Of a DNA stretch of 64,000 nucleotides, positions 3,175 to 31,574 are shown one piece after another. Each line of letters opens with the position of its first letter. Positions within the stretch are counted from its first letter, which is position 1. The notes beneath the pieces were generated by a model that saw only the letters and a list, made by a program, of their open reading frames with translations, was not told the DNA's origin and ran no database searches. This DNA is from Catellatospora paridis (lineage in GTDB: Bacteria > Actinomycetota > Actinomycetes > Mycobacteriales > Micromonosporaceae), in contig NZ_ML769320.1 in assembly GCF_009720365.1 (NCBI RefSeq), forward strand, positions 106,952-170,951, read 5' to 3'. The position numbers and the translations under genes are program-made.

Positions 3175-4053
3175 GTGGCTCGCAGCATCCTCTTCGTGCA
3201 CGCGCATCCCGACGACGAGTCGATCGGGACCGGCGCGACCATGGCTCACTACGCGGCGCAGGGCGCACACGTCACGCTGGTGACGTGCACCCTCGGCGAG
3301 GAGGGCGAGATCCACGTGCCCGAGCTCGCGCAGCTGGAGGCCGCACAGGGCGACCAGCTGGGCGGATACCGGCTCTCCGAGCTGAAGAGCGCGCTGGCCG
3401 CGCTGGGCGTGATCGACCACCGCATGCTCGGCGGGGCGGGCCGCTACCGCGACTCGGGCATGATGGGCACCCCCGCCAATGAGCACCCGCGCAGCTTCTG
3501 GGGCGCGGACCTCGAGGAGGCCTCGGCGCACCTGGTCGAGATCATGGACGAGGTGCGGCCCCAGATCGTCGTCACGTACGACGCGAACGGCTTCTACGGC
3601 CACCCGGACCACATCCAGGCCCACCGGGTCGCCATGCGCGCCTCGGAGATCGCCGCGGAACGCGGTTTCGGCCCCTCCAAGATCTACTGGACGGCGATGC
3701 CGCTGAGCGTGCTGAAGGCGGGGGTCGAGGCGCTGGCCGACTCGACGGACAACCCGTTCGCCGCGGTCACCGACGTGGCCGACTTCCCGTTCGGCACGCC
3801 CGATGAGGAGGTCGCGGCCTGCATCGACGGCTCCGACCACCACGACGCCAAGGTCGCCGCGCTGAAGGCGCACGCCACCCAGATCCCGGAGACGTCCTGG
3901 CTCTACTCCATCGCCGGCAACTTCGGCCAGGAGTTCATGGGCGTCGAGCATTACACGCTGGCGCTCGGCGTGCGTGGTCGCGGCGACGGTCCGTACGGCT
4001 GGGAGACGGATCTGTTCAGCGGCCTGCCCGACGGTTCACCCGCCGCGCGGTGA
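3175..4053 (+). CDS. mshB: Mycothiol biosynthesis deacetylase MshB
   Basis: MshB removes the acetyl group from GlcNAc-Ins to give GlcN-Ins, the second step of mycothiol synthesis, in the cytosol with a Zn ion. The 292-residue length fits the family. The PIG-L/LmbE metal motif is visible as HPDDE at residues 11-15 (His11, Asp14) and the second motif GHPDH at 142-146 (Asp145, His146). The GTG at 3175 is supported by the start of the conserved strand ([14 protein letters not shown]) and by a -10-like TAGAGT at -12. It is followed, with a 4-base overlap, by a small membrane protein gene. Mycothiol use fits with the mycoredoxin gene at 45229. Confidence 0.93.
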
Positions 4054-4463
4054 AGCTGCTCGACCTCGCCCTGCGCGGGATCGGGGCCGTGCTCGCGGTG
4101 TTCCTGGGCGGCGCGTCGGCGGTGCTGGAGGCCGTCTACACGCCGTACCGCATCGCCGGCTGGCCCGCGGTGTGGCTGGTGCCGACAGCGCTGCTGGTCA
4201 GCCTGTTCCTGGGTTGGTTCGCCCGGACGGCCACGGGGCTGGCCTGGGGCTGGTGGCTCGCCGCGGTGCCGTGGTTCCTCGTCATGATCTTCGCGGTGGG
4301 CGGCACTCAGGAGGGCGACCAGATCGCCGCGACCTGGCTCGGCCTGCTGGTGCTCGCCACCGGCGGCATCGGCTTCGTCGGCCCCGCCGCTTACCGTGCC
4401 GGCAAGCGCACCACCGCGCCGCCGCGGGCCGCCGCCCCGCAGCTCACGCCCCACCAGTTCTGA
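4050..4463 (+). CDS. Small integral membrane protein (DUF6113-like), coupled to mshB
   Basis: This 137-residue protein starts with a GTG that overlaps the mshB stop (GTGA), so translation is coupled. Four hydrophobic segments are visible (about residues 8-30, 35-55, 62-85 and 92-115), followed by a short basic/proline tail (APQLTPHQF). A small membrane protein directly after mshB is a common arrangement in Micromonosporaceae and Streptomyces, usually annotated DUF6113; I base the family name on position and topology rather than on a diagnostic motif. No catalytic residues are evident. It ends before a palindromic repeat (4497-4543) that probably acts as a bidirectional terminator. Confidence 0.75.
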
Positions 4464-4496
4464 CCGCATCCGCCCTGCTCAGACCGCTTTGCGGTG

Positions 4497-4543
4497 AGGA
4501 AGGGCACCCTGCGCACCGATAGCGTCAAGAAGGTGCCCTTCCT
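4497..4543. repeat. Palindromic intergenic repeat, family A copy 1
   Basis: Inverted arms aggaagggcacc (4497-4508) and ggtgcccttcct (4532-4543) enclose a 23-nt spacer containing 'accgatagcgtcaa'. A second, longer copy lies at 10531-10580. Both sit between the ends of convergent genes, so they probably work as bidirectional terminators. They may also be a mobile palindromic repeat. Confidence 0.75.
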
Positions 4544-4552
4544 CCTGCCAGG

Positions 4553-5308
4553 TCAGGTGTTGAGGGCGTCGAGGCGGAGTACGACGTTCTGGTATGCGGT
4601 TGGTGGGACACGTTCGGTGCTGGTGAACGGGCGCTCGATCTGGTGGATCGTGAACAGCAGCAACGTGATCATGCCGACCACGGCGGTGGTCATGGCGAGT
4701 TGCGTGCCGATGTGGTCGAACCGGAAGAACAGGATCGGCATCCCGGCCAGCAGCGCGCCGAACAGCAGCGCGAACCAGGTCACGTCGCCGATTCGCTTGT
4801 CCGCCAGGGCGAGCCGGTCCTCGCGGGCCTGCATCACGGCGTGCACGGTGGCCTCCGGCGACTCGCTCTCGGGCGGCACCGGCACCCGGGCCGTCGCCTC
4901 CCGCAGGTCGTTCAGCAGCGCCCAGCCCTGCTCGCCGACGGGCTTGCCGGCGCGCATCCGGGGCAGTTCCTGATCGAGGATCTCGCGCAGGTAGGCGCGG
5001 GTGAGCAGGTGGATCGACGCGCGCACCTCCGGCGGGCCGGTCTCGGCCGCCCAGGCCACCGACTGCACCGCCTGCGCCTCGCGGTACGTCGCGTCACGGG
5101 CGTCGTTGCCGATCTGCCACACGTCGATGAAGACGAACGCGGCGACCACGGCGTACAGCGTGCCGGTCATCGAGAACACCACGCTGAGCACGTCGTGGGT
5201 GTCGGCGCGGCGGTCCGGTGGCCACGAGCGGCGGATGAACACCACGGCCAGCGCCGCGATGCCGCAGATGCCGAGAAACCACAGGAGACCGCTCGCGTAA
5301 GCCCGCAT
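4553..5308 (-). CDS. DUF4239 (bestrophin-like domain) membrane protein
   Basis: This 251-residue protein has four hydrophobic helices: residues 3-22 ([19 protein letters not shown]), about 45-65 ([16 protein letters not shown]), about 175-195 ([20 protein letters not shown]) and about 203-223 ([20 protein letters not shown]). A soluble loop (residues 70-165) lies between the two pairs. This 2+2 layout and the phrase 'F.H.IERPF' near the end fit the DUF4239/bestrophin-like family, whose function is not established. The ATG at 5308 was chosen because GGAGGAAC precedes it. The gene is divergent from the repeat-rich surface protein, with only 58 bp between starts. Confidence 0.75.
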
Positions 5309-5331
5309 GAGTTCCTCCAAAAACACTATTC

Positions 5332-5353
5332 GCCCAAACGGGACGTTTAGGGC
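5332..5353. promoter_or_regulatory. Inverted repeat in a 58-bp divergent promoter
   Basis: The sequence gcccAAACG-gga-CGTTTagggc is an interrupted palindrome (one bulged base) midway between the starts at 5308 (-) and 5367 (+). It could be an operator controlling both genes. No regulator is identifiable. Confidence 0.35.
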
Positions 5354-5366
5354 TATACAAGATGCT

Positions 5367-6845
5367 ATGCGTGCGACGTCCAGATTTCGACCCCTCGTCG
5401 TCGGGCTGTTCCTGGCCACGGCCATCGGACTGCCCTCGGCCGTCGCGCTGCTGACCCCGCGCGCCGCGCTGGGTCATGCCGCAGCGCCGCCGGGTGAACT
5501 GCTGCAGGTGCGTTCGGCGGTGCCCAATGCACCGTCCGAGCTGGTCAGTCTGAATCCCGACACCGGCGCGGTGCTGCGCCGGGTCTGGCTGCCACACACG
5601 ATCAACGCCATCGGGTACGACCCCGCGCAGGGCCTGCTCTACGGCATCGCGGCCCGGTTCCGGCTGGTGCCGCTGGGCGGCGGCGGCCATCTCGTCGCGA
5701 TCGGTCCGGATGGGACGGTCGTCGACCACGGGCCGGTCCATGCGTCTCTGAGCAGCGCGAATGCGGGCGCCGTCGTCGGCGGGGAACTGTTGCTCCCGGT
5801 CGGCGGGCGGCTGATCGGGATCGACGTGCGTGCCGGCGGGGCGACGTTCGGGCAGGTCACGAGGAATGTGGCGCTGTCCGGGCCGGTGCGGGTCGGGGAC
5901 TGGGACTACGACCCGTACCGGCAGGCGCTGGTGGGGGTGGACGCGTCGGGGCCGTCTCCCCGGCTGATCGCGGTGGATCCGGTCAGTGGGCAGGTCAGCA
6001 GTGGTGATCTCACGGGTGACCTGCGGCGGGGCGGGACGTACGGCTCCGTGGCGTTGATCGGCGACACGCTGTACGCGACCGGCAACGGGCTGGGCCGGCC
6101 GCTGCGGCAGTACCGCATCGCGCTGTCCACCGGGGCGGCGACCCTGCTGGCCACCTCGCAGCCGGTGTACCTCACCGACGCGGCCTGGCTGCCCGCCACG
6201 CCGAGCCCGTCACCGTCCCCGTCTCCGAGCCCTTCGCCATCCCCGTCTCCGAGCCCGTCACCGTCCCCGAGCCCATCTCCGTCACCATCACCGAGCCCGT
6301 CACCATCACCAAGCCCCAGCCCATCGCCGTCGCCTTCAGTGAGTCCCAGCCCGTCTCCCTCCCCGAGCCCTTCGCCCTCACCATCACCGAGTCCTTCGCC
6401 ATCCCCGTCCCCGAGCCCCAGCCCATCGCCGGCACCATCGCCGAGTCCGAGTCCGAGTCCGAGTCCGGGTCCGAGTCCGAGTCCGTCACCGTCTCCAAGC
6501 CCGAGTCCGTCTCCAAGCCCGAGTCCGTCACCGAGTCCGAGTCCGTCACCGAGTCCGAGCCTGTCGCCGACGCCGAGCCCGTCGCCGTCGCCTGTGCTGG
6601 TGGTGCCGATCGTGCCGTTGCCCGAGCCGCAGGCGCCGCCGGAGCCGTCGCCCGAGCCGAGTCCGTCCCCGGAGCCGTCGCCGTCCGTCCCGCCGAGCCC
6701 GGTGCGGCGGTCCGTGGTGATCGAGCCGGAGCCCGTGCGGCACGTCCGGAGTGTTGTCGAGACCGGGCGGAACACCGTCGTGATCTTCATCCTGGGCCTG
6801 TCCGGCAGTCGCCTGTTGCTCTCCGCTCGGCGGCGTCGCCGCTGA
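5367..6845 (+). CDS. Secreted/anchored protein with beta-propeller-like domain and long Pro-Ser repeat
   Basis: The 492-residue product has three parts. Residues 1-35 form a signal peptide ([24 protein letters not shown]). Residues 40-277 look like a propeller-type domain in which '[15 protein letters not shown]', '[11 protein letters not shown]' and '[14 protein letters not shown]' recur. Residues 278-410 are nearly pure PS/SP dipeptide, followed by a PEPSPE stretch and a C-terminal hydrophobic segment ending in Arg ([22 protein letters not shown]). The end looks like a membrane anchor with a positive stop; there is no LPxTG. The repeat would be an extended wall-spanning stalk presenting the propeller outside. 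ATG 5367 was chosen over the ATG-equivalent at 5307 because the signal peptide begins there. Confidence 0.8.
6199..6594 (+). repeat. Degenerate 6-bp tandem repeat encoding (Pro-Ser)n
   Basis: About 65 units of CCG-AGY / CCN-TCN run without interruption inside the surface-protein gene and encode roughly 130 residues of alternating Pro and Ser. The opposite strand stays open through the repeat as Gly-Asp, which is only a composition effect. Length variation between strains is likely and would change stalk length without a frameshift. Confidence 0.9.
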
Positions 6846-6853
6846 CCTGCGGC

Positions 6854-8263
6854 TCAGGCCGGTCGGGTGGCGGGTGGGGCGCCGCCGGCGCGGGCCGCGG
6901 CGGCTTCCACCATGGCGAGGTCCGCGGGCAGCATGCCGGTGGCGCGTACGCCCGCGAGCGTCAGCTCGATCTGGTGGTCCAGCGCGGCGATGGTGCGTAC
7001 CCGACCAGGGGTCGTCTCGCCGCGGTAGCCGGACAGGCAGCAGTCACGCAGCATGCCCATGGTCCGCAGCAGCGGGATGACGACGCTGGGGTGCGGCGCG
7101 GCATAGTGCCGCAGCTGGTTGAAGGCGTGCTTGACGTACTCCGTGTGGTCGAGGTCGCACGGGGTGAGCAGGATGCGGCCGTCCTGGTCGCGCATCGCCT
7201 GGGCGGGGCATTCGGCCAGCAGCAGCGGGCGCATGACCGAGCCGATGCGCAGGATGACCTCGACCGCGGTGGTCGGGTCGTTGACGGCCTGGGACAGCGC
7301 GCGCAGTCCGACGTCGGCGAGCTGGCGCAGGCCGAAGTCGATGTCCTGCTGCATGGTGCGGGCGACGCCGATGATGACCGCCTCGGCGATCAGGCGGGCC
7401 GCCGTGGCCGGGTCGGCCGGTGGCGGCCACATGGTGACCAGGGGCGTGCCCGCGGTCACGAACGCGCCGACGCGGGTCTCCAGCCGCACCACCGTGTCCG
7501 GTGGCACGGCCGCGACGATGGCGCGCCGGCTCAGCTGCTGCACCCATCCGTCGGTGACGGCGGTGACGATGAGCGGCGGACCGAGGGTGCCCACATCGGG
7601 CGGGTCGACCGGTTCGCCGATCTTGACGCCGATGCGCGGCCCGTACGGCAGTTCGCTGATCAGGCTGTGGGTTTCCCGGGCGACCCGCTGCACGATCCGG
7701 CCGACGTACTGGTTGCGGCTGATCCGGTCCAGGTAGACGACGATCGCGATGACCGAGAGCAGGGTGAGCAGGAGGGCGAAGCCCACGGTCAGCGGGGGCG
7801 CGTGGTCGGCGGCGGTGTCGACGCGCGCCAGCGCCAGCACGCAGAACGCGAACGTGCTGAGCAGCAGGCCGACCAGTACCTGGCCGTGGCGGTCGCGCCA
7901 GAAGCCGCGCAGCACCCGCGGCGAGAACTGGCCGCTGGCGAGTTGCAGCGAGACCACCAGCAGCGAGAAGACCACGCCGGCCGTCGTGATCATGGCACCG
8001 GCGATGATGCCCAGCAGCGTGACGGCGACGTCCGGAGTGAAACTGATCACCCCGCTGGGATCCGTCATGTAGCGCTCGTCGATCTCCGCGAGCAGCATCA
8101 CGATGATGATCGAAGCGGCGAGCATCATGATCGGCAGGAACAGCAGGCTCTCCGCCAGGCGGTCGCGCAGCGCCCGGGAGCGCAACCGGCGTACGTGCGG
8201 GGCCACCTCGTGCTCGTAGTGGGCAGCCGTCCCACTGTCACCATGTCGGACAAACTCGGCCAT
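6854..8263 (-). CDS. DUF2254 membrane protein
   Basis: This 469-residue protein has two hydrophobic helix pairs in its first ~180 residues (about 33-55 LLFLPIMMLAASIIIVMLL, then VAVTLLGIIAGAMITTAGVVFSLLVVSLQLASGQFSPRVL). The motif ASGQFSPR after TM3 is characteristic of DUF2254. A fourth pair (LVGLLLSTFAFCVLALA, VGFALLLTLLSVIAIVVYL) is followed by a ~250-residue cytosolic domain with the family phrase 'QDIDFGLRQLADVGLRALSQAVNDPTTA'. The family is widespread and of unknown function, probably a transport or envelope protein. ATG 8263 was chosen because the helical domain starts shortly after it and upstream codons are not protein-like. It converges with the surface-protein gene (8-bp gap). Confidence 0.85.
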   Translation of the reverse strand: MAEFVRHGDSGTAAHYEHEVAPHVRRLRSRALRDRLAESLLFLPIMMLAASIIIVMLLAEIDERYMTDPSGVISFTPDVAVTLLGIIAGAMITTAGVVFSLLVVSLQLASGQFSPRVLRGFWRDRHGQVLVGLLLSTFAFCVLALARVDTAADHAPPLTVGFALLLTLLSVIAIVVYLDRISRNQYVGRIVQRVARETHSLISELPYGPRIGVKIGEPVDPPDVGTLGPPLIVTAVTDGWVQQLSRRAIVAAVPPDTVVRLETRVGAFVTAGTPLVTMWPPPADPATAARLIAEAVIIGVARTMQQDIDFGLRQLADVGLRALSQAVNDPTTAVEVILRIGSVMRPLLLAECPAQAMRDQDGRILLTPCDLDHTEYVKHAFNQLRHYAAPHPSVVIPLLRTMGMLRDCCLSGYRGETTPGRVRTIAALDHQIELTLAGVRATGMLPADLAMVEAAAARAGGAPPATRPA

Positions 8264-11674: not shown

Positions 11675-12001
11675 GTGACCTACATCATCGCCGAGCCGTG
11701 CGTCGATGTGCTCGACAAGGCCTGCATCGAGGAGTGCCCTGTCGACTGCATCTACGAGGGCAACCGCATGCTCTACATCCACCCGGACGAGTGCGTCGAC
11801 TGCGGTGCCTGTGAGCCGGTCTGCCCGGTGGAGGCGATCTTCTACGAGGACGACGTGCCGGAGCAGTGGCGCGACTACACCACCGCGAACTACGAGTTCT
11901 TCAACGAGCTCGGCTCGCCCGGTGGCGCCTCGAAGATCGGAAAGATCAGCGCGGACGCGCCGTTCGTCGCGGCCCAGCCCGCCAAGGAAGGCGACCACTG
12001 A
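11675..12001 (+). CDS. fdxA: 7Fe ferredoxin FdxA
   Basis: The 108-residue ferredoxin carries one [3Fe-4S] and one [4Fe-4S] cluster. The first motif C9-x7-C17-x3-C21-x3-C25 and the second CVDCGACEPVCP are both intact, in the order typical of actinobacterial FdxA (Rv1177-like). It carries electrons in the cytosol. GTG 11675 (TYIIAEPC...) was chosen over GTG 11660 because the Shine-Dalgarno GGAGGG (11662-11667) sits just before it and all family members begin near TYII. The stop overlaps the start of dapC, and the pair fdxA-dapC is conserved in actinobacteria. Confidence 0.95.
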   Translation: MTYIIAEPCVDVLDKACIEECPVDCIYEGNRMLYIHPDECVDCGACEPVCPVEAIFYEDDVPEQWRDYTTANYEFFNELGSPGGASKIGKISADAPFVAAQPAKEGDH

Positions 12002-13101
12002 GCACGCCGGTTTCCGGTGCAGGCCGGCGGAGGATCTCCGCCGGCCTGCCCGACTTTCCCTGGGATCTGCTGGAGCCGTCGAAGCGGCGCGCCGCGGCGC
12101 ACCCTGACGGCATCGTGGACCTGTCCATCGGCACGCCCGTCGACCCGGTGCCCGCAGTCATCCGCAAGGCGCTGGCCGAGGCGTCCGACGCCCCCGGCTA
12201 CCCGCTGACGGCGGGCACCGCCGAGCTCCGGCAGGAGATCACCGCCTGGGTCGCCCGCTCCTGCGGCGCCGCGCCCGGGTTCGGCGTGCTGCCGACGATC
12301 GGCTCCAAGGAGCTGGTGGCCTGGCTGCCCACGCTGCTCGGCGTCGGCGCGGGCGACACCGTGGTCATCCCCGAGGTCTGCTACCCGACGTACGAGGTCG
12401 GCGTGCAGCTCGCCGGAGCCAGGGTGCTGCGTGCCGACACCCCGCCCGCGGGGGAGCGCCCGGCCCTGATCTGGATCAACTCGCCCGGCAACCCGCACGG
12501 CCGGGTCGCGTCCGAGGCCGAACTGCGGGCCTGGATCGCGTACGCCCGCGCCACCGGAGCCGTGCTGGTCAGCGACGAGTGCTACCTCACCCTGCCGTGG
12601 ACCGCGACGCCGGTCTCGGTGCTGTCGCTGTGCGACGGCGACTTCACCGGGGTGCTGGCGGTGCACTCGCTGTCCAAGCGGTCCAACCTGGCCGGGTACC
12701 GGGCCGGCTTCGTCGCCGGCGACCCGGACCTGGTCGGCGAGCTGCTGGCGGTGCGCAAACACGCCGGCATGATCATGCCCGCGCCGGTGCAGGCCGCGAT
12801 GATCGCGGCGCTGGCCGACGAGTCGCATGTGGACGAGCAGCGGGCCCGCTATGCCGCCCGCCGCGAGCTGCTGCGCGAGGCGCTGCTCGGCGCGGGGTTC
12901 ACCATCGAGCACTCCGAGGCCGGGCTCTACCTGTGGGCGACCCGCGGCGAGGACTGCTGGGCGACCGTGGACGCGCTGGCCGAACTGGGTGTGCTGGTCG
13001 CGCCGGGCGCGATCTACGGACCCAACGGCGTGAAGCACGTGCGGGTGGCGCTCACCGCCACCGACGAGCGGGTGCGCACGGCCGTGGCACGGCTCGCCTG
13101 A
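11998..13101 (+). CDS. dapC: Succinyldiaminopimelate aminotransferase DapC (probable CTG start)
   Basis: DapC is a PLP-dependent class I/II aminotransferase that forms N-succinyl-LL-2,6-diaminopimelate in lysine/meso-DAP synthesis. The family opening 'ISAGLPDFPWDLLEP', 'DGIVDLSIGTPVDPVP', the 'WINSPGNPHGRV' Asn-Pro motif and the Schiff-base lysine in 'HSLSKRSNLAGYRAGF' are all present in this 367-residue product. The conserved N-terminus lies too close to the fdxA stop for any ATG/GTG/TTG. The only fitting start is CTG 11998, overlapping the fdxA TGA and placed 6 nt after a strong AAGGAAGG (11984-11991). The in-frame GTG 11866 would overlap fdxA by 136 nt and is unlikely. Confidence 0.9.
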   Translation: MSTPVSGAGRRRISAGLPDFPWDLLEPSKRRAAAHPDGIVDLSIGTPVDPVPAVIRKALAEASDAPGYPLTAGTAELRQEITAWVARSCGAAPGFGVLPTIGSKELVAWLPTLLGVGAGDTVVIPEVCYPTYEVGVQLAGARVLRADTPPAGERPALIWINSPGNPHGRVASEAELRAWIAYARATGAVLVSDECYLTLPWTATPVSVLSLCDGDFTGVLAVHSLSKRSNLAGYRAGFVAGDPDLVGELLAVRKHAGMIMPAPVQAAMIAALADESHVDEQRARYAARRELLREALLGAGFTIEHSEAGLYLWATRGEDCWATVDALAELGVLVAPGAIYGPNGVKHVRVALTATDERVRTAVARLA

Positions 13102-13105
13102 TCGG

Positions 13106-14209
13106 TCAGCCCGCCGTGACCGGCACCTGCACCGCCCAGTAGAGCTGGCCCCGCGGGCCGACGAAGAACAGTGCCACCAGCAGGTCGGACGGTTCCGGCG
13201 GCGGCGTGCCGTCGCGTGCGAATCTGCCGACGAATGCGGTGGAGGTCGCGTCCGGTTCGATGGAGACCGCGAGGACCGACGGGTACGTGGTCCCGGCGTC
13301 ACCATGCGAGGTCGGGGCCAGCGCCGACAGCCAGGGGTACCGCTTCCAGGCGTCCGCCATCTCGTTGCCGCCCCAACCGCCGCCGTCCCTGCCGTAGAGC
13401 TGCGGTGCGACCCGGTTGTACCGCTTGTCGAGCAGGATGATGTGAAAACGTCCCCGCGTTGCCGGCTGCGGTACGGCGAGGTCGAATCGGCCGAGGACGG
13501 ACCGTTCACCGTTCGCGTGGACTCCCGACACACCCAGGGCGGCGGCATCGGCGTCGAAGTGCTCCCGGTCGGTCAGCCGGATCGTGGCGACGGGGTGCAC
13601 CGCCTCGGGCCCGTACGGCGGGCGGTCGCGCCACACGCCGAAGCCGACCGCTGCCACCGATGCCGTCACCAGGACGATCGCGATGAAGGGCACGAGACGC
13701 GGCCTACGGCCCGGCGCGGACTCGCCCCACAGTGCCGCCGCCAGGAACAGCACGCCGAGCGCCAGGCCGGTGCCGACGGTGCCTGCCAATACCGCGGTCT
13801 GTCCGTCCAGCGCCAGTTGCACCTGCTCGACTTGATGCAGCAGGCAGAGCATGGCGAGCACCAGGCCGACCGTGGTCAGCGAGGCGACGGCGTGCGCCCG
13901 CGCCGCCAGGTCCACCCCGTGGGCCGTATCGGCGAGCGGGCCGCGCCGCGTGACGTGCTGCACCGTCGCGGTGACGAACACGCAGGTGACCAGCGCGCCC
14001 ACCCCCCAGGCGACGATCTCCCCGCCGTCTCCGAGGCCGGATGACAGCGCCAAGGCGGTGGAGACGAGCGCGGTGGCGGCGACAACGCGGGGCGTACGGC
14101 GCAGCCACGCCGGGACCGGCACGGCGGTCACGGTCTGGGTCGCAGCACCCGCCGCCAGCTCGGCCGACGCCGCGCCGAGCAGCCAGCCTGCCAGCAGCGG
14201 CACGAACAC
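13106..14209 (-). CDS. Multispanning membrane protein with C-terminal extracytoplasmic-type domain
   Basis: This is a 367-residue protein that I do not recognise. It has about six hydrophobic helices in residues 1-190 (for example FVPLLAGWLLGAASAELAAG, VAWGVGALVTCVFVTATV, VASLTTVGLVLAMLCLLHQV, LALGVLFLAAALWG, LVPFIAIVLVTASVAAVGFGVW), then a soluble ~170-residue domain rich in Gly, Tyr and Trp (LYGRDGGGWGGNEMADAWKRYPWL). The start is GTG 14209. It converges with dapC, with 4 bp between stops, and follows the same direction as the three-gene operon upstream. It does not overlap that operon and may be read through from it. Confidence 0.65.
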   Translation of the reverse strand: MFVPLLAGWLLGAASAELAAGAATQTVTAVPVPAWLRRTPRVVAATALVSTALALSSGLGDGGEIVAWGVGALVTCVFVTATVQHVTRRGPLADTAHGVDLAARAHAVASLTTVGLVLAMLCLLHQVEQVQLALDGQTAVLAGTVGTGLALGVLFLAAALWGESAPGRRPRLVPFIAIVLVTASVAAVGFGVWRDRPPYGPEAVHPVATIRLTDREHFDADAAALGVSGVHANGERSVLGRFDLAVPQPATRGRFHIILLDKRYNRVAPQLYGRDGGGWGGNEMADAWKRYPWLSALAPTSHGDAGTTYPSVLAVSIEPDATSTAFVGRFARDGTPPPEPSDLLVALFFVGPRGQLYWAVQVPVTAG

Positions 14210-14241
14210 TCTAGCGTCCGGCGGCTACAGGGGCTGCCCGG

Positions 14242-15528
14242 TCAGTGGGCCGGGATGCGGTGCGGGGCGAGCCGTTCCAGGAAGGCCCGGTTGGCCTCCC
14301 AGCCGTCGACCTGCGGCGGGTCCGTGCCGAGCCAGACCGGCTCCGCCGCCGGGTACGCGTGCAACTGCTCGTCGACCCCGGCCCGGCTGACCACCACGCA
14401 TGCCTGCCGGTGCCGGGAGGCCAGCACGCACAGCCGTCCCGCCTCCAGGTGGAAGGCGCTGGCGTCGCGCCGCCCGCTGAGCGGGTGCCAGGCCAGCACC
14501 ACCTCGTACTGCCGTCCCTGCAGCCGGTTGGCCGTGTCGACGGTGACCCCGGTGATGCCCCGGCGCTGCAGCGCGGCTTCGACGTGTGCCTTCTGGTCCC
14601 GGTGCACCACCCCGACGGCGACGTCGGCCCGGTTCAGCGGCCGCGGCCCCGACGGGTCCACCGTGGACACCTCCGCGGTCACCAGCTGGTGCACCAGGTC
14701 GGCGAGCGTCGCGACCAGGGCCGGGTCGGTGCGCGGCACGTGCGCGGCGGGCAGTTCCAGCAGCGCCCAGCCGTGCTCGGCGGCGTGCGCCAGCGCGGGG
14801 TGGGCGAGGCTGGCCAGTTCGAGCCGCCGGTCGGTCGGTGCGGCTCCGGCGGTGAAGGCGCGGGTGTAGAACGCGTCGGAGATCACGGGTGCGGTGTGCG
14901 GGGCGAGCCGCCAGCTCACCGGCAGCGGGATGACGGGGGTGTCCGGGTGGTGGCGCAGCAGGGTGCCCGCTGCGGTGTCCAGTGGCCAGGTGGCCAGCGA
15001 GCGCACCGAGTGCTCGTCGGCGACGGTGAACGGGGCGAGCTGTCCCGGGTCGCCGACCAGCAGCAGCCGGTCGAACAGGTGCCCGACGCGCACCAGCGCC
15101 GCCGCCGACATCTGGTACGCCTCGTCGATGACGCCCAGCGGCCAGGTGCGCTCGTCGGCCTTGACGTAGGCCCATTTCGCGGCGGTGCCGACGATGACGT
15201 CGCAGCCGCCGAGCTCGCCGAGCTTGGTGCCGGTGCGCACCTTGGTCCGCGGCCAGCCCGTCGGTGGCGTCCACTCCTGGCCGTGCAGGCGGCCGGTGGA
15301 CAGCCCTACCCCGGCCAGCGCGATCACGAGGTCGTCGGCCTGGTCGTTGGTCTGCACCACGATCGGCACGTTCTCGCCGACCGCGACCAGGCGTTTCGCG
15401 AGTTCGCGGACCAGCGTCGACTTGCCCGCGCCGGGCGGGGAGTCGACGACGACGGCCCGGTCGGTGCCGCGTACCCGATTCCAGACCTCCTCGATCGCGG
15501 CCTCGTGCCGCGCTCCGGCGCTGGTCAC
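14242..15528 (-). CDS. SF1-type DNA helicase/ATPase (Dna2/RecD2-like), third gene of a nuclease-helicase operon
   Basis: The 428-residue product has all core superfamily-1 motifs in order: Walker A SPPGAGKST (30-38), motif II DEAYQ (135-139), motif III GDPGQLAP (159-166), motif IV SWR (205-207), motif V DTANRLQG (331-338) and a motif VI-like GRLCVLASRHR (364-374). The DExxQ/GDPxQLxP style is that of SF1B enzymes (RecD, Dna2, Upf1). The GTG start overlaps the preceding stop by four bases (GTGA), which identifies this frame as the real one over the overlapping open frame 14225-15535. The two upstream genes encode an unrecognised protein and a Cas4/RecB-like Fe-S nuclease. Together they look like a split nuclease-helicase machine. 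Confidence 0.82.
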   Translation of the reverse strand: MTSAGARHEAAIEEVWNRVRGTDRAVVVDSPPGAGKSTLVRELAKRLVAVGENVPIVVQTNDQADDLVIALAGVGLSTGRLHGQEWTPPTGWPRTKVRTGTKLGELGGCDVIVGTAAKWAYVKADERTWPLGVIDEAYQMSAAALVRVGHLFDRLLLVGDPGQLAPFTVADEHSVRSLATWPLDTAAGTLLRHHPDTPVIPLPVSWRLAPHTAPVISDAFYTRAFTAGAAPTDRRLELASLAHPALAHAAEHGWALLELPAAHVPRTDPALVATLADLVHQLVTAEVSTVDPSGPRPLNRADVAVGVVHRDQKAHVEAALQRRGITGVTVDTANRLQGRQYEVVLAWHPLSGRRDASAFHLEAGRLCVLASRHRQACVVVSRAGVDEQLHAYPAAEPVWLGTDPPQVDGWEANRAFLERLAPHRIPAH

Positions 15529-17063
15529 TGTGCACCTCGCGACTCGGCTGCCGGGTCGGGCACGGCGCGGGGCACGGGGACGCGGCCCGGCGCGGTGTCC
15601 GGGTCGGCGGCGGTCCCAGTCTGCTGCGCGGGGAGCGTGAGGTCGGTGTCCAGGTCGTCGTCCAGCTCGGGTTCGGGGGCGGGCTTGGGACGCGACGAGC
15701 GGGTCGGCCAGGGCAGCTCGTCGGGCAGGTTGTCGGGGAAGTACTGCTGCGGGCCGAACGGGGCCAGCACCACCTCGGCGTCGGCGTCGGGCAGCAGGCC
15801 CAGCTTGGGCCGGGTGACCGCGCCGCTGGTGACCATCAGCTCGACGGTGTCGTCGGTGGAGCCGCGCACCACCATGCCGACCTTGCCCCACCACAGTTCG
15901 GTGCCCGCGGGCCGGTCGAACGCGGACCCGGTGCGCACCCACAGCAGCGGCCGCAGCACCGAGCGGCCGCCGGAGTTGACGACGGTGTGCTCGGGATCGC
16001 GCTTGATGACGACCCCGGCGACGGCCTCGCCGGTGGCCAGGTAACGGGCCATGACCAGGGGATCGTCCAGGGCCATCTGCCGGTCCAGGGCGGCCGTGCG
16101 GGTCTCCAGCTCGTGCAGGAAGCGGTATGCGGGCACGTCGGACAGTCGCGCGCTGAACGACACCGTGCCCGCCAGCACCCGTTCCCGGTGCCGGGTCCAC
16201 GACCAGCGGTCGGACTCCCAGCGTTTGGCCACGTGCTCGCCCGGCGGCAGCATCCGCACCAGGTCGATCGCCGCCCAGGTGTCGCGCCACGCCCCGTCGA
16301 GCACTTCGGCGGCGGCCAGCTTGAGCCGGCGTACGTCGCCCTGGTGCTTGGCCCGTTCGAGTGCCGGGCGCAGCACGACCTGGTCCCAGGACGGGTCGCT
16401 GGCGGGCCCGGCCGGGGGCATCGCCTCGGCGTCGCGGGCAGCCTGCCAGGCGTCGACGCCGGCGGGCGGCTCGATCCAGGCCAGCAGCCGGCCCAGGTGC
16501 CCGTCCTCGGTGGGCAGCTGGCCGGTGCGCCAGTGCGCGGTGAGCAGGTCGGTCGCGGTGAGCAGCACGTTGGAGCCGGGCAGGTGGCGGCGCGAGGCGA
16601 TCCAGCCCAGGTGCGCCCCGGCGGCGGCGAGCACCGGGTCGTCGAGGGTGCGCAGGTACTGCCCGAGCAGGCCGACCCAGTGCGCGGTGGCCTCGTTGGG
16701 CACCACCAGCTGCGGGGCGTCCACGCAGCAGTGGTCCACGTCCAGCTCGCGGCCGCTGCCGGTGGCCCGTACGACGGGTTCGGTGACGGTGTAGCGGCTC
16801 AGGTAGGTGGCCAGGTCACGGGCCAGGCCGCCGAGCGCGGCGAAGCGCAGCGCCCGGTCCCGCGGTTCGGCGACGGTGAGCAGCTTGGGGGAGTCGCGGA
16901 AGGAGCCGTAGCGGATCGCGACCGGCGCGGACGGTTCGCCCGCCAGGTGGTATCCGGTGAGCAGCCAGGGCCGTGGCGACAGGTGCCGGTGGGCGCGGGA
17001 GGCCGCGGGCACGGCACGGGCCCGCGACAGCGCGAGCAGCCGCTGGTAGACGTCGAGGCTCAC
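15525..17063 (-). CDS. Unrecognised protein between an Fe-S nuclease and an SF1 helicase
   Basis: This 512-residue protein has no family that I recognise. Residues 1-430 look globular and mixed alpha/beta, with Trp-rich stretches (AWRDTWAAIDLV, AGTELWWGKVGMVVRG) and a 'LDVDHCCVDAPQLVVPN' strand. Residues 430-512 are acidic and Pro-rich (PEPELDDDLDTDLTLPAQQ) and probably disordered. No Walker motif, zinc cluster or transmembrane helix is visible. Both ends overlap neighbours by four bases (GTGA), so its amount is tied to that of the nuclease and helicase. Inference: a scaffold, DNA-binding or substrate-recognition subunit of the same complex. Confidence 0.7.
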   Translation of the reverse strand: MSLDVYQRLLALSRARAVPAASRAHRHLSPRPWLLTGYHLAGEPSAPVAIRYGSFRDSPKLLTVAEPRDRALRFAALGGLARDLATYLSRYTVTEPVVRATGSGRELDVDHCCVDAPQLVVPNEATAHWVGLLGQYLRTLDDPVLAAAGAHLGWIASRRHLPGSNVLLTATDLLTAHWRTGQLPTEDGHLGRLLAWIEPPAGVDAWQAARDAEAMPPAGPASDPSWDQVVLRPALERAKHQGDVRRLKLAAAEVLDGAWRDTWAAIDLVRMLPPGEHVAKRWESDRWSWTRHRERVLAGTVSFSARLSDVPAYRFLHELETRTAALDRQMALDDPLVMARYLATGEAVAGVVIKRDPEHTVVNSGGRSVLRPLLWVRTGSAFDRPAGTELWWGKVGMVVRGSTDDTVELMVTSGAVTRPKLGLLPDADAEVVLAPFGPQQYFPDNLPDELPWPTRSSRPKPAPEPELDDDLDTDLTLPAQQTGTAADPDTAPGRVPVPRAVPDPAAESRGAQ

Positions 17064-17992
17064 GGGATGCTCCGTCCGCCGGTCGCCCAACCGTACGCCG
17101 CCGCGGCGCGGGCCAGCTCGTCCGCGATGGCCTGCTCCGCCTCGCCGGACGGGGTGCGCTCGCCGTGGGCCAGGGCCAGCGCATGCACGGCCGTCCCGAC
17201 GGGGCCGCACAGGTTCGCTGCCGCCCCGCCCGCGCGGGCGACCGTGCCGGTGCTTTCGGCGTCCTGGCGGCAGTGGGTGTACATCGGACAGCTCGGGCAG
17301 CCGTCGCCGAACCGCGCCTCGACCGCGGCCAGCGCGCTGACCAGCGCCTGCCCGCCCAGTTCGGGCTCGCGCAGCCGTGCGGGCAGGTCGACGGCGTCGA
17401 GCCGGTCCAGCGACCAGCCCAGGCGGCGCACCTGGGGCGCGACGTCGAGCAGGGTGCCGACCGGGGCGAGGCCGAAGTTGCGCGGCAGCACCAGCAGGCA
17501 GCGGCTGCTGACGCGCTCCGGCACCGGGGCGGCCTGCCGCAGCGCGGCCACCACCACGGCCAGTTCACGGGCGGTGCCGGCGACCTTGGTCGGGTCGGCG
17601 TGACCGTCCAGGCAGGCGTACGACCTGATCTCGACCGGGAACAGCAGCGCGCCGTCGCCGGCCAGCACGATCTGCCCGGGGGTGACCGGCAGGTCGCGCA
17701 GGCGCAGCTTCGGTTCGCGCCACACCCACAGGCCCGCGCCGACCGGCAGCTCCGAGGTCTCGACGGCGGCCGCGCAGTCGATGCCGAGGTGCCGTCCGAC
17801 CAGCTCGGGCAGCCGGGCCGTGGCCAGGTGCGTGAAGGTGCCGTCCCGCTCCCGGGCGTACGGGCTCTGGCCGCCCGGCGGCGCGCCGATGGCGTCGGCG
17901 AGCACCCCGAGATCGACCTGCGCGGCGTCCAGGGCCTGCCGGCGACGGCAGCCGGGCGCGTCGAGCAGCCCGGCTATCCGTCGCGGATCCAA
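17060..17992 (-). CDS. Cas4/RecB-like Fe-S nuclease candidate, first gene of the operon
   Basis: The 310-residue protein has a cysteine layout typical of iron-sulfur RecB-family nucleases (Cas4, AddB, Dna2): one Cys near the N-terminus (C15 in DAPGCRRRQ) and three near the C-terminus in CPSCPMYTHC (C232, C235, C241). Between them, D113 and E121-x-R123 in 'AGDGALLFPVEIRSY' resemble the D-(D/E)xK metal motif, though with Arg in place of Lys. These are direct observations; nuclease activity is inferred. The start is TTG 17992, the only start codon before the conserved region, with GGGGGTG upstream. The stop overlaps the next gene (GTGA). The closest known comparison is the fused RecB-nuclease/helicase proteins, here split. 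Confidence 0.72.
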   Translation of the reverse strand: MDPRRIAGLLDAPGCRRRQALDAAQVDLGVLADAIGAPPGGQSPYARERDGTFTHLATARLPELVGRHLGIDCAAAVETSELPVGAGLWVWREPKLRLRDLPVTPGQIVLAGDGALLFPVEIRSYACLDGHADPTKVAGTARELAVVVAALRQAAPVPERVSSRCLLVLPRNFGLAPVGTLLDVAPQVRRLGWSLDRLDAVDLPARLREPELGGQALVSALAAVEARFGDGCPSCPMYTHCRQDAESTGTVARAGGAAANLCGPVGTAVHALALAHGERTPSGEAEQAIADELARAAAAYGWATGGRSIP

Positions 17993-18031
17993 GCCAGCAC
18001 CCCCAAGTGCGTGCCTAACAGCGTGGGTGGA

Positions 18032-18970
18032 TCAGTCGTTGGCGTGCAGCGCCGCGTTGAGCACGATGCCGGTGCCGGTGCGCGGCCGGGCCTCGACCGC
18101 GCCGGTCACCGAGTTGCGCAGGAACAGCACGTTGGACGCGCCGGACAGGGTCGCCGCCTTCACCACCTCGCCGGTGGAGACCAGCGTGACCTTGGTGCCC
18201 GCGGTGACGTAGCAGCCGGCCTCGACCACGCAGTCGTCGCCGAGCGAGATGCCGATGCCGGCGTTCGCGCCGACCAGGCTGCGCTGGCCGACGCTGATGG
18301 TCTCCTTGCCGCCGCCGGACAGGGTGCCCATGATGGACGCGCCCGCGCCGATGTCGGAGCCCTCGCCGACGACGACGCCCGCGGAGATGCTGCCCTCGAC
18401 CATGGAGGTGCCCAGCGTGCCGGCGTTGAAGTTGACGAAGCCCTTCTGCATGACCGTGGTGCCGGACGCCAGGTGCGCGCCCAGGCGCACCCGGTCGGCG
18501 TCGGCGATGCGCACGCCCGCGGGCACCACGTAGTCGGTCATCCGCGGGAACTTGTCCACGCCGTACACGGCGAGGTGGCGGCCGGCGGCGCGCTCGATCA
18601 GGCGCAGCTCGTCGACGCGGTCCGGCGGGCACACCCCGGCCGAGGTCCAGGCGTTGTTCGGCAGCAGCCCGAAGATGCCGTCGAGGTTGGCCTCGTGCGG
18701 CTGGATGAGCCGGTTGGAGAGCAGGTGCAGGCGCAGGTACGCGTCGGCGGTGTCGCGCGGCGCGTCGGCCAGCGAGGCGATGACGGTGTGCACGGGCACG
18801 ATCCGCAGGCCGGGCAGGGTGGGCTCGGCGCCCTTGAGGTCGGGCGCGTCGATGCCGCAGAGGTCGAGGCCGAGCTGGCCGGTGGGATACCACACTTCAA
18901 GCGTGTGGTCGCCGCTGACGGTGGCGAGACCGAAGCCCCAGGCGGGCCGGTCGGAACGTGTGCTGCTCAC
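18032..18970 (-). CDS. dapD: Tetrahydrodipicolinate N-succinyltransferase DapD
   Basis: DapD transfers succinyl from succinyl-CoA to tetrahydrodipicolinate in lysine/meso-DAP synthesis. The 312-residue protein fits the actinobacterial DapD type (Rv1201c-like): an N-terminal domain ending near '[20 protein letters not shown]' and a left-handed beta-helix of hexapeptide repeats ([44 protein letters not shown]...) with a Glu/Gly active-site region. GTG 18970 is preferred; its start is only 18 bp from that of divergent dapE, so both are probably leaderless or nearly so. The long open frame continuing upstream to 20332 is a composition artefact antisense to dapE. Confidence 0.95.
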
Positions 18971-18976
18971 GGTGTC

Positions 18977-18983
18977 TACGCTA
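18977..18983. promoter_or_regulatory. Shared symmetric -10 element of the dapD/dapE divergent promoter
   Basis: The heptamer TACGCTA reads TACGCT on the plus strand, 12 to 7 bases before dapE ATG, and TAGCGT on the minus strand, 13 to 8 bases before dapD GTG. One 7-bp element would therefore drive leaderless transcription both ways. Confidence 0.55.
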
Positions 18984-27736: not shown

Positions 27737-28177
27737 ACGCCACCCACCTCAGCTACGGACCGGACAGCTTCCAACCATGCTCGACCAGCATCGATCGGCA
27801 ACATCGGATGTCCAGGCGCGACGGTCGGCCGGTACGCCAGCGTCGTTGGTCCGGAAGCGTCGCCCCCCGATCCGTTCGCACACCGTATTCATGCATTCAC
27901 GTAGCGTTCCGTCGTCAATCAACTCGGATCGCCTGACCGCAAGTGCCGGTCCCGCGACGGCCGGTCAGTGTGCGGTTCTGCCCCCATGCGGCTGCGCCGG
28001 GTGTAACCGAGCTACTCCATTCGTCTGTGATGACGTCGGTCCGCACCGCGCGGCCGCCGTCGCTCCAGGCCTGTTATATGGCATTTCTGAGTTTCTGCCG
28101 GGAGTCCGGATGCTCGCGGCACCACAACCGGCTCGCCTGCTGCCGCGGTGTCGCCCGCACGTGCTGGAATGTTCGGC
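27737..28177. other. 441-bp intergenic region with no gene seen
   Basis: This stretch separates the leftward trypco2 operon from rightward adnA. It is less GC-rich than its neighbours and has stop codons in all frames that could hold a conserved protein. It must hold the two divergent promoters. Near adnA a TGGAAT hexamer (28165-28170) sits 13 to 8 bases before the chosen GTG. I see no RNA gene or repeat. Confidence 0.6.
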
Positions 28178-31100
28178 GTGAGCAGCGTCGTTCAGCGGGA
28201 CTGGCGGCTGGTCCGGGGCAGCGACCCCGACCGGCCGGCGTTTCGTGCCGACCCGGCCCAGCAACGGGTGATCGCGCACGAGTCCGGCCCGCTGCTGGTG
28301 CGCGGCGGACCGGGCACGGGCAAGACGACGACCCTGGTCGAGGCGGTCGCCCGGCGGGTCGCCGACGGCGTGGACCCGCAGCGCATCCTGGTGCTGACGT
28401 TCGGCCGCCGCGGATCGCAGTCGCTGCGGCGGCGCATCGAGGCCCGCATCGCCCGCGGTGTCGGGCACGAACCGCTGGTCAGGACCTTTCCGGCGTACGC
28501 CTTCGGGCTGCTGCGCCGCTCCGCGGCGCTGCTGGGCGACCCATCCCCCCGCCTCCTCTCCGGCCCCGAGCAGGACCTCGTCATCCGTGAGCTGCTGCCC
28601 GGCGAGGACGCGGGCTGGCCGGACCGGCTGCTGCCCGCGCTGGGCACCCGCGCGTTCGCCGAGCAGCTGCGTGACCTGCTGCTGCGCGCCGCCGAGCGCG
28701 GCATCGGCCCCGCCGACCCGCTCTGGCAGCGGCGCGACGACTGGCAGGCTGCGGCCCGCTTCCTGCACGAGTACGAGCAGACGATGGCGCTGCGCGACGC
28801 CTCCACCCGTGGCTCGGCCGGCTACGACCACGCCGAGCTGGTCCGGGCCGCGACCGCCATGCTCCGCCGCGACCCCGAGCTGCTGGCCGCGGAGCGCTCC
28901 CGGCTGTCCGCGGTGTACGTCGACGAGCTCGCCGACACCGACCCGGCGCAGGTGGAACTGCTGCAGCTGATCGCGGGCGGCCTGCCGCTGACGGCGTTCG
29001 CCGACCCCGACTCGTCGACCTACGCCTTCCGCGGCGCCGACCCGCAGATCGTGCGGACCTTCGGCGAGCTGTTCCCGGGCACGGAGCAGGTGGTGCTGGC
29101 CACCACGCACCGGGCCGCGCCCGCGGTCCGCGCCGCGACCGCCCGCATCGCCCGCCGCCTGCCCGGCCACCTGACCGTGGTGCCCGCACCCCGCCAGGAG
29201 CAGACCGCACTGTTCGCGGACGGCACCCGGCCTGCGGCCGCTACGGACGGCGCGGCGCTGCCGACGGCCGTCACCAGCGGGTCCGCGCAGTCGGCGACTC
29301 CTGCGGGCGGTGCCGGAGCGGTTGGGCGAAGCGAGCCGCCGGACGATCCCGATGTCGGCGTCGAGGTGGTGGCGCTGCGCAGCCGGGTGAGCGAGGCCGC
29401 GTTCGTGGCGCACCGGCTGCGGCGGGCACATCTGGTCGACGGGGTGCCGTTCTCGCGCATGGCGGTCATCATGCGTTCCACGAACTCGCAGCTGCCCGCC
29501 TATGAGCGGGCGTTGCGGCAGGCGGGTGTGCCGACGAAGGTGCTGGCCGAGGATCTTCCGCTGCACCAGCAGCCTGCGGTGAAGCCGCTGCTCATACTGC
29601 TGCGCTGTGCGTTGAAGCCGGAGCTGCTGACCGAGGAGGCGGCGGTCGCGCTGCTGCACTCGCCGCTGGGCGGGGCCGACCCGATGGCGGAGCGGCGGCT
29701 GCGGCAGGGCCTGCGCGCGCTCGCGGTGGCCGGTGGCGACCCCCGCGGCTCCGGTGAGCTGCTGGTGGAGGCGCTGCGCGACCCGGCCGAGCTGGCCGCG
29801 CTGGACCGGCGCTGGGCCTCGCCCGCGACGCGGATCGCCATGCTGCTGGCCACCGCGCGGGAGACGGCGGGGCGTCCGCGGGCCACCGCGGAGGAGGTGC
29901 TGTGGTCGGTCTGGCGGGCCAGCGGCCTGGCCGAGCGCTGGGCCGGGGTCGCCACTGCGCCCGCGATGGGCCTGGACCAGCAGCGCCGCGCGGAGACCGC
30001 GGACCGGGACCTCGACGCGATCATGGTGCTGTTCGACGCCGCGGCGCGGTTCACCGACCGGCTGCCGGGCGCGCGGATCGACACGTTCCTCGAACACGTC
30101 GCCGACCAGCAGCTGCCCGCCGACTCGCTGGCCGCCAGCGGCGACCGGGGCGAGGCGGTGCGGCTGCTCACCGCGCACGCGGCCAAGGGCCTGGAGTGGG
30201 ACGTGGTAGTGGTCGCCGGGGTGCAGGAGGGCGTCTGGCCCGACCTCCGGCTGCGCGGCAGCCTGCTCGGCTCCGAGCAGCTCGTCGACGAGGTCGCCCA
30301 GCGCGCCCAGCCCGGTGCGAAGGCGCAGCGCGTCGCGCAGACCGCCGCCCTGCTGACCGAGGAGCGGCGGCTGTTCTACGTCGCGGCGACCCGGGCCCGG
30401 CGGCGGCTGGTGGTCACCGCGGTGGACTCCGGCGCGGTCGGCGGCGCGGACGGCGAGGACCGGCCCAGCCGCTTCCTGTTCGAGCTCGCCCCGCCGGTCA
30501 AGGTGGACGAGGACGAGGTGGCCGAGCTGGCGCTGGCCCGGCCGCCGCGGGCGTTGACGCTGTCGGCGCTCGTCGCCGAACTGCGTTCCGCCGTCACCGG
30601 CCCGGACCCGGTCCGGCGGCACGCCGCCGCCCGCGAGCTGGCCCGGCTGGCCGCCGCCGGGGTGCCCGGCGCGCATCCGGACAGCTGGTGGGGTCTGCCG
30701 GAGCTGTCCGACGACGGCCCGCTGCACGGCCCGGACGAGCCGGTGCGGGTCACCCCGTCCACCATGGAGAGCGCGCTGCGCTGCGGGCTGCGGTGGCTGC
30801 TGGAGCGGCACGGCGGCGCGGCGGCCTCGACGGCCGCGCAGGGCGTGGGCAACCTGGTGCACGCCGCGGCGATGCTGGCCGACGAGGCGATGAGCGACCC
30901 GGCGGTGCTGGTGGACTACGTCGCGGCGCGCTTCGACGCGATCGAGCTGGCCGCGTCCTGGCTCGCCGGGCGGGAGAAGGAGCGCTCGGCGGAGATGCTG
31001 GGCAAGCTGACCCGCTGGCTGGCCGAGAACCCGCGGCGGCTGGTGGCGATCGAGCGCGAGTTCACCGTGCGGCTGGACGCCGAGCCGCCGATCGACCTGG

Positions 31101-31504
31101 TCGGCCGGGTGGACCGGCTGGAGGTCGACGACCAGGGCCGGCTCGTGGTCATCGACCTGAAGACCGGCAAGACCACCACCGCCACCCGCGAGGAGCTGCC
31201 CGAGCACCCGCAGCTGGGGGCGTATCAGGTCGCGGTCGAGGCGGGCGGCTTCCCCGAGGGCGACGAGTCCGGCGGGGCGGCGCTGGTGCAGCTGGGCACC
31301 ACCCACCGGGACGCCAAGGAGCAGGTGCAGGACGCGATCGGCGAGACCGCCGACCCGCAGTGGGCGCACGCCATGGTGCACCGCACCGCGGCCACCATGG
31401 CCGCCTCCACCTTCGTCGCGAAGGTCAACGACAAGTGCCGGGTCTGCCCGGTGAAGAGCAGCTGCCCCGTCTCCGGCAAGGGTCGTCAGGTGGTCGAACC
31501 GTGA
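28178..31504 (+). CDS. adnA: AdnA, helicase-nuclease subunit with degenerate motor
   Basis: AdnA pairs with AdnB in the actinobacterial end-resection motor-nuclease that replaces RecBCD/AddAB. This 1108-residue subunit has Walker A GGPGTGKT (43-50), but the DEYQD box typical of UvrD/Rep proteins reads DELAD (D249-D253), so the Tyr and Gln are lost. A C-terminal RecB-like nuclease carries 'VVIDLKTGKTTTA' (about 991-1003) and Fe-S cysteines (RCGLRW, and KCRVCPVKSSCPV). In mycobacteria AdnB is the main motor and AdnA's is dispensable, which fits. GTG 28178 was chosen over 28148 and 28169. adnB starts 70 bp downstream. Confidence 0.9.
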   Translation: MSSVVQRDWRLVRGSDPDRPAFRADPAQQRVIAHESGPLLVRGGPGTGKTTTLVEAVARRVADGVDPQRILVLTFGRRGSQSLRRRIEARIARGVGHEPLVRTFPAYAFGLLRRSAALLGDPSPRLLSGPEQDLVIRELLPGEDAGWPDRLLPALGTRAFAEQLRDLLLRAAERGIGPADPLWQRRDDWQAAARFLHEYEQTMALRDASTRGSAGYDHAELVRAATAMLRRDPELLAAERSRLSAVYVDELADTDPAQVELLQLIAGGLPLTAFADPDSSTYAFRGADPQIVRTFGELFPGTEQVVLATTHRAAPAVRAATARIARRLPGHLTVVPAPRQEQTALFADGTRPAAATDGAALPTAVTSGSAQSATPAGGAGAVGRSEPPDDPDVGVEVVALRSRVSEAAFVAHRLRRAHLVDGVPFSRMAVIMRSTNSQLPAYERALRQAGVPTKVLAEDLPLHQQPAVKPLLILLRCALKPELLTEEAAVALLHSPLGGADPMAERRLRQGLRALAVAGGDPRGSGELLVEALRDPAELAALDRRWASPATRIAMLLATARETAGRPRATAEEVLWSVWRASGLAERWAGVATAPAMGLDQQRRAETADRDLDAIMVLFDAAARFTDRLPGARIDTFLEHVADQQLPADSLAASGDRGEAVRLLTAHAAKGLEWDVVVVAGVQEGVWPDLRLRGSLLGSEQLVDEVAQRAQPGAKAQRVAQTAALLTEERRLFYVAATRARRRLVVTAVDSGAVGGADGEDRPSRFLFELAPPVKVDEDEVAELALARPPRALTLSALVAELRSAVTGPDPVRRHAAARELARLAAAGVPGAHPDSWWGLPELSDDGPLHGPDEPVRVTPSTMESALRCGLRWLLERHGGAAASTAAQGVGNLVHAAAMLADEAMSDPAVLVDYVAARFDAIELAASWLAGREKERSAEMLGKLTRWLAENPRRLVAIEREFTVRLDAEPPIDLVGRVDRLEVDDQGRLVVIDLKTGKTTTATREELPEHPQLGAYQVAVEAGGFPEGDESGGAALVQLGTTHRDAKEQVQDAIGETADPQWAHAMVHRTAATMAASTFVAKVNDKCRVCPVKSSCPVSGKGRQVVEP

Positions 31505-31574
31505 GCGAGCGCAGCGATCGAACCGGAAGCACAGTGGTAGCTCACGGGAGTGCCGAGCGTGGCGAGGTGCGAGC

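Follow-up and report, generated by a model that had tools for sequence, protein, structure and literature searches.

What machine is encoded by three overlapping genes set inside a lysine gene cluster, and what does it do there? The genes, here called A, B and C, lie in a stretch of 64,000 nucleotides from Catellatospora paridis, which we refer to as the window. They had been read in the initial annotation as a Dna2-type nuclease-helicase split over separate subunits, serving either housekeeping repair or defence. We follow this reading through the gene layout, distribution, protein folds, selection and neighbourhoods of the trio.

Gene layout at the dap locus

The three open reading frames and their overlaps had been placed correctly: the A-B and B-C junctions both read GTGA on the minus strand (Table 1). 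The trio lies between dapD/dapE and dapC, and its assignment to the lysine gene cluster is borne out by NCBIfam-type models, which identify the flanking DapD (TIGR03535, just below the model cut-off in the stretch scanned), DapE (TIGR01900) and DapC (TIGR03539). The TTG start of A is found 39 bases past the dapD stop, and co-transcription of dapD and A is possible. The gene caller prefers a later start for A, leading to a product of 281 aa. The TTG start is nonetheless supported by the residues that follow it, DPRRIAGLLDAPGC, since they are also kept in L070, a relative of the window genus. The dapD-A gene order is the same in relatives from genera g1, g10 and g39, and the dap-locus position of the trio is common to 10 loci from these three genera.

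Table 1. Features of the trio and its surroundings, in window coordinates
Feature	Position	Strand	Description
gene C	14242..15528	-	428 aa; SF1 helicase core, DNA2/Upf1 type
Walker A of C	15415..15444	-	DSPPGAGKST, residues 29-38; SF1 motif analysis
gene B	15525..17063	-	512 aa; no relative in sequence libraries
barrel of B	15750..16028	-	residues 346-438, small beta-barrel in the structure model; candidate detached helicase domain 1B
gene A	17060..17992	-	310 aa, TTG start; subunit with predicted Cas4/RecB-like PD-(D/E)XK fold and four cysteines
C232, C235, C241 of A	17270..17299	-	putative Fe-S ligands; in 179/179 aligned rows
E121-I-R123 of A	17624..17632	-	ExK position of relatives; alignment of 179 A rows
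C15 of A	17948-17950	-	putative Fe-S ligand; column filled in 152/179 rows, gap in 27
dapD	18032..18970	-	context gene, same strand as A-B-C
AdnAB-like pair	28169-34865	+	two neighbouring UvrD-type helicases, both ending in a PD-(D/E)XK domain
UvrD-HRDC helicase	45573-47750

Distribution and linkage of the three genes

Among 101 genomes of the Micromonosporaceae, 58 hold all three genes, 41 hold none and 2 are partial. A and B are found in the same 59 genomes; C shares 58 of them and occurs in one other. One partial genome lacks C, and its B lies close to where the 10,493-base contig stops; the other has only C, at bases 4-1221 and hence at a contig end. Searching with the B profile, we find 70 positives among the 394 class genomes (324 are negative) and 11 among 296 genomes of the phylum, all 11 inside the class. 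The trio is therefore not essential, given its absence from these 41 family and 324 class genomes. Three plasmid-collection records hold a copy. B of genus g70, probably Streptomyces, clusters with named Streptomyces plasmid copies. The phage records and viral contigs searched gave no relative.

Linkage is described on 178 of 189 fetched loci (L062-L250); the others either repeated a B sequence already counted or had no called B (L080, L122). The window itself (L065) is counted once among the 178, and locus labels come from profiles and gene calls of our own. A neighbours B in 174 loci and is fused to it in 4 (L071, L073, L074 and L076, with the reading frame kept), which accounts for all 178. 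C is the next gene in 109 loci; in 20 more it lies at another place of the fetched region, and in 49 outside it. For example, C is about 34-65 kb from A-B in the genera g4 (Micromonospora) and g11, yet present in the genome, and across the family sample a C that is off the A-B neighbourhood is still found in the genome. Four-nucleotide overlaps are recurrent, both for A/B (90 of 174 adjacent pairs) and for B/C (70 of 109).

The initial annotation had made its reading depend on the three genes not being commonly separate. C goes against this in part, as 69 of the 178 loci have it away from B and 49 of these have it outside the fetched region; A and B are never apart in the loci fetched. Thus, in this sample A and B are inseparable, as their adjacency or fusion is universal, and C, sometimes distant, is co-inherited but mobile in position. 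Together with the co-occurrence in the family genomes, the A-B adjacency argues for an A-B-C association beyond chance.

TM0106-type genes, which encode a nuclease-helicase in a single chain, are found in none of 31 family genomes and in 45 of 148 class genomes, 39 of these above the cut-off. G131 is the only B-bearing genome found among those 39, a near-exclusion of TM0106 and B that may reflect phylogeny alone.

Protein A of the window keeps its cysteines but not the full catalytic triad

The structure prediction for A, a check that the initial annotation had proposed, yields a Cas4/RecB-like PD-(D/E)XK fold that matches the nuclease domains of Cas4, MGME1, AddAB and AdnAB. All four residues of the Cas4/RecB-like cysteine pattern noted earlier are present, and they form an Fe-S-type set that would be expected to hold an Fe-S cluster.

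The active site is a different matter. Scored on the alignment of 179 A rows, the D, E, K triad (D..ExK) is intact in 158 of the 178 loci. At the three catalytic columns, window A has G, E and R, so that the Asp of the relatives' EPD is replaced by Gly and the catalytic Lys by Arg. The replacement of K by R extends to the whole window clade (14 of 14 members, K in none), 8 of the 14 A proteins have also lost E, and several are without D or E, with the cysteines retained. In L066, a close relative with 92% identity across A, position 121 is V. The nuclease motif proposed at D113/E121-x-R123 therefore does not hold as such: its residues are present in A, but the motif is not conserved among relatives. 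Accordingly, an active nuclease in the window copy finds no support, and window A carries a degenerate nuclease motif lacking the catalytic D...ExK. A change of K to R alone need not abolish catalysis, and window A still has E121, with D113 nearby.

The triad also deviates in six loci that apparently fall outside the window clade (L083, L128, L130, L219, L226 and L248), with L219 being degenerate as well (D-L-R).

Proteins C and B and the proposed single enzyme in three chains

The full SF1B motif set claimed for the last gene stood up: the SF1 set is complete in C and all motifs are conserved across 126 sequences. DNA2 is its best PDB sequence match (E 5e-5), and by analogy with the DNA2/Upf1 family C would translocate 5'-3'. 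C also aligns to residues 740-1113 of a 1131-aa TM0106-type nuclease-helicase with an hhalign probability of 99.6, a value obtained from one profile pair with 19 proteins on the TM0106 side. In the same comparison, B has no sequence similarity to TM0106-type proteins and A gives a probability of only 9.8, in its cysteine region. The three proteins add up to 1250 aa, similar to the length of the TM0106-type single chain, and follow one another in the order of its parts.

As had been noted for the 512-residue middle protein, B has no relative in Pfam, NCBIfam, PADLOC or PDB sequences. No NCBIfam model matched A or B at E 1, so the TM0106 model (TIGR03491) is not matched either. The structure model of B (mean pLDDT 84.4) has a barrel that may be the missing domain 1B of the motor; its match to domain 1B of SETX or IGHMBP2 is about equal to those with the barrels of riboflavin synthase and F1-ATPase. 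Because C aligns with the TM0106 motor and B ends in a barrel at the place of 1B, the trio resembles a single enzyme divided among three chains.

Most B proteins have a conserved tail, TPWTHGGPP (B residues about 441-459 in relatives), which is lost in window B.

Selection on the trio

Selection on the trio in the window genus is still purifying, with a median omega (15 pairs each) of 0.34 for A, 0.27 for B and 0.15 for C. For C, the value of 0.15 in g1 is the same as in g70. For A, 0.34 in the window genus compares with 0.22 in the other sets and with 0.48 in g13. This weaker constraint on A also fits slow decay.

Neighbourhoods and defence genes

A fourth gene, c2, accompanies the trio in 63 of the 178 regions, leaving an A-B-C core without c2 in 115. 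In the family, c2 is found in 25 of 101 genomes, 24 of them trio-bearing; a c2 at G020:C1:5865971-5866741 belongs to a genome in which neither A nor B is matched. In another genome, distant c2-like and C-like matches lie 4 kb apart and off the trio (G006:C1 871965-876861), perhaps another variant. A search of the window's genome for c2 found none.

Some copies with c2 form cassettes with known defence genes. Wadjet (JetA) is found in 10 of the 178 regions and SbcC or SbcD in 11, with both in 5 (L063, L064, L127, L234 and L241), and 162 regions have neither label. Wadjet type I is beside cassettes L063, L064 and L234, and type II beside L095, L109, L111, L115, L117, L127 and L241, PADLOC having identified one set of each type; the five g7 regions with Wadjet II represent one inherited arrangement. 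In L064 the SbcCD genes are apparently reduced to remnants (short fragments). All 8 cassette-bearing genomes checked have another SbcD besides that of the cassette, compared to one copy above the cut-off in 10 of 10 cassette-free genomes. JetA1 is found in 13 of the 101 family genomes, never beside the trio.

Other neighbours were observed in single regions. In L219, c2-A-B-C has a NO VEIN-type SNF2 helicase on one side and, on the other, a pPIWI-RE island that includes a separate PD-(D/E)XK protein (11726-18977 and 3977-7309); L226 has the same gene lengths and order. In L135 (7068-14283), a GmrSD-like gene is found inside the operon, between B and C, and L134 has a gene of similar length in the same place.

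G080 shows that degenerate and cassette forms can coexist in one genome: A is degenerate in its fused dap-locus copy (L074) and intact in its c2-A-B-C-SbcCD-JetA2 cassette (L127). The window's genome has a single B and one SbcD. Neither JetA1 nor JetA2 was found in it, which leaves no Wadjet set at the locus. PADLOC-DB 2.0.0 at E 1 gave no family for A or B and weak helicase matches for C only. No defence genes are recognised around the window copy, whose locus is stable.

Discussion

We put it at about an even chance that A, B and C are the separate chains of one Dna2/AddAB-like nuclease-helicase whose cutting activity has probably been lost in the window clade. The Dna2-type split enzyme of the initial annotation is supported by the nuclease-type fold of A, the DNA2 sequence match of C and the co-inheritance of the genes; an active nuclease in this copy is not. 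C would be the ATP-driven SF1 motor. B would act as a scaffold joining A to C, a role suggested by the observed A-B fusions, and may also provide the 1B barrel of the motor. In most relatives, A would cut the strand fed by C, judging from its intact active site. A of the window clade no longer has the catalytic lysine and often lacks further active-site residues, yet selection is still purifying; the window machine would thus most probably be a helicase whose A subunit holds DNA and does not cut it. Such a machine would work on broken or branched DNA, kept in its fixed place beside the dap genes. A role in repair may be redundant because AdnAB-like helicase-nucleases are encoded in the same window.

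Other readings give the trio a different purpose. Genome defence in all hosts, with the window copy an intact member attacking invading plasmid or phage DNA, is unlikely. It draws on the cassettes that adjoin Wadjet type I/II (10 regions) or SbcCD (11 regions), on the second SbcD, on the pPIWI-RE and GmrSD-like neighbours of L219 and L135 and on the patchy presence in the family, but most regions have no Wadjet or SbcCD label, JetA1 of the family genomes keeps apart from the trio, viral sequences gave no relative and A and B are without a PADLOC model. The window copy itself keeps the dap locus, has no c2 and has a degenerate A. Somewhat less doubtful is a housekeeping function in repair or at replication forks for most hosts, from which the defence-side copies would have been recruited later. 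Vertically kept loci (the dap locus and the conserved flanks of the g70 and Streptosporangium/Planomonospora-type copies), purifying selection and the large share of regions without c2 are consistent with it; the many genomes without the trio and the repeated company of defence genes argue against it. Very improbable is a decaying, functionless remnant in the window clade: the active-site loss and the omega of A in g1 and g13 would agree with decay, but the frames are open, the SF1 motifs are kept, C is as constrained in g1 as in g70 and the A-B fusions are in frame.

Preferring the split nuclease-helicase, we find defence a reasonable interpretation where the cassette copies are concerned, but no more than possible for the window copy. 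Judging from their neighbours, cassette copies (with intact A, c2 and often their own SbcCD) would most likely degrade foreign DNA ends. A tentative and rather doubtful extension is that c2-A-B-C with its own Mre11-Rad50 (SbcCD) performs end-processing on the defence side: Wadjet or another nuclease would cut, SbcCD would open the ends and the trio would unwind and degrade, as the bacterial equivalent of resection by MRN plus Dna2, with the window clade having domesticated a nuclease-dead version at the lysine locus. Wadjet is described in PMC10586767 as cutting circular, not linear DNA. If these readings are right, some family members would answer what becomes of DNA after Wadjet linearises it, and a whole actinobacterial nuclease-helicase family has been overlooked, two of its three subunits being without a Pfam or NCBIfam model. 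The window clade would be a natural experiment, with the motor kept and the nuclease lost, and the intact cassette, intact resident and nuclease-dead resident forms provide a testable set for separating cutting from unwinding.

Comparison with known systems

A search confined to open-licence literature found no description of the trio, including in passages of PMC10693628, PMC10586767, PMC10482375, PMC7159879, PMC3702460 and PMC12904381. Gabija is another nuclease-helicase defence, according to PMC12904381, and the trio has no Gabija gene. Wadjet (JetABCD) is a neighbour of some cassette copies, but the trio itself has no Jet gene.

Cas4 has the same predicted fold and four-cysteine layout as A; A differs in having a helicase partner, and no CRISPR context was seen for it. 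AddAB and AdnAB share the RecB-like nuclease fold and an SF1 motor with the trio. Their motors are UvrD-like SF1A and their nuclease is fused to the helicase; an AdnAB-like gene pair is separately present in the window. The TM0106-type enzyme of actinobacteria (TIGR03491) has a motor that aligns with C and a similar total length and order of parts, but it is a single chain and B has no detectable sequence relation to it. Eukaryotic Dna2 is likewise one chain and resembles the trio in its Fe-S PD-(D/E)XK nuclease fold and SF1B motor. Here, nuclease and helicase are not joined in one chain, the only fusions being those of A and B in 4 of 178 loci; instead, the machine is spread over three genes, with a middle protein that matches no Pfam or NCBIfam family and an A without the full catalytic triad.
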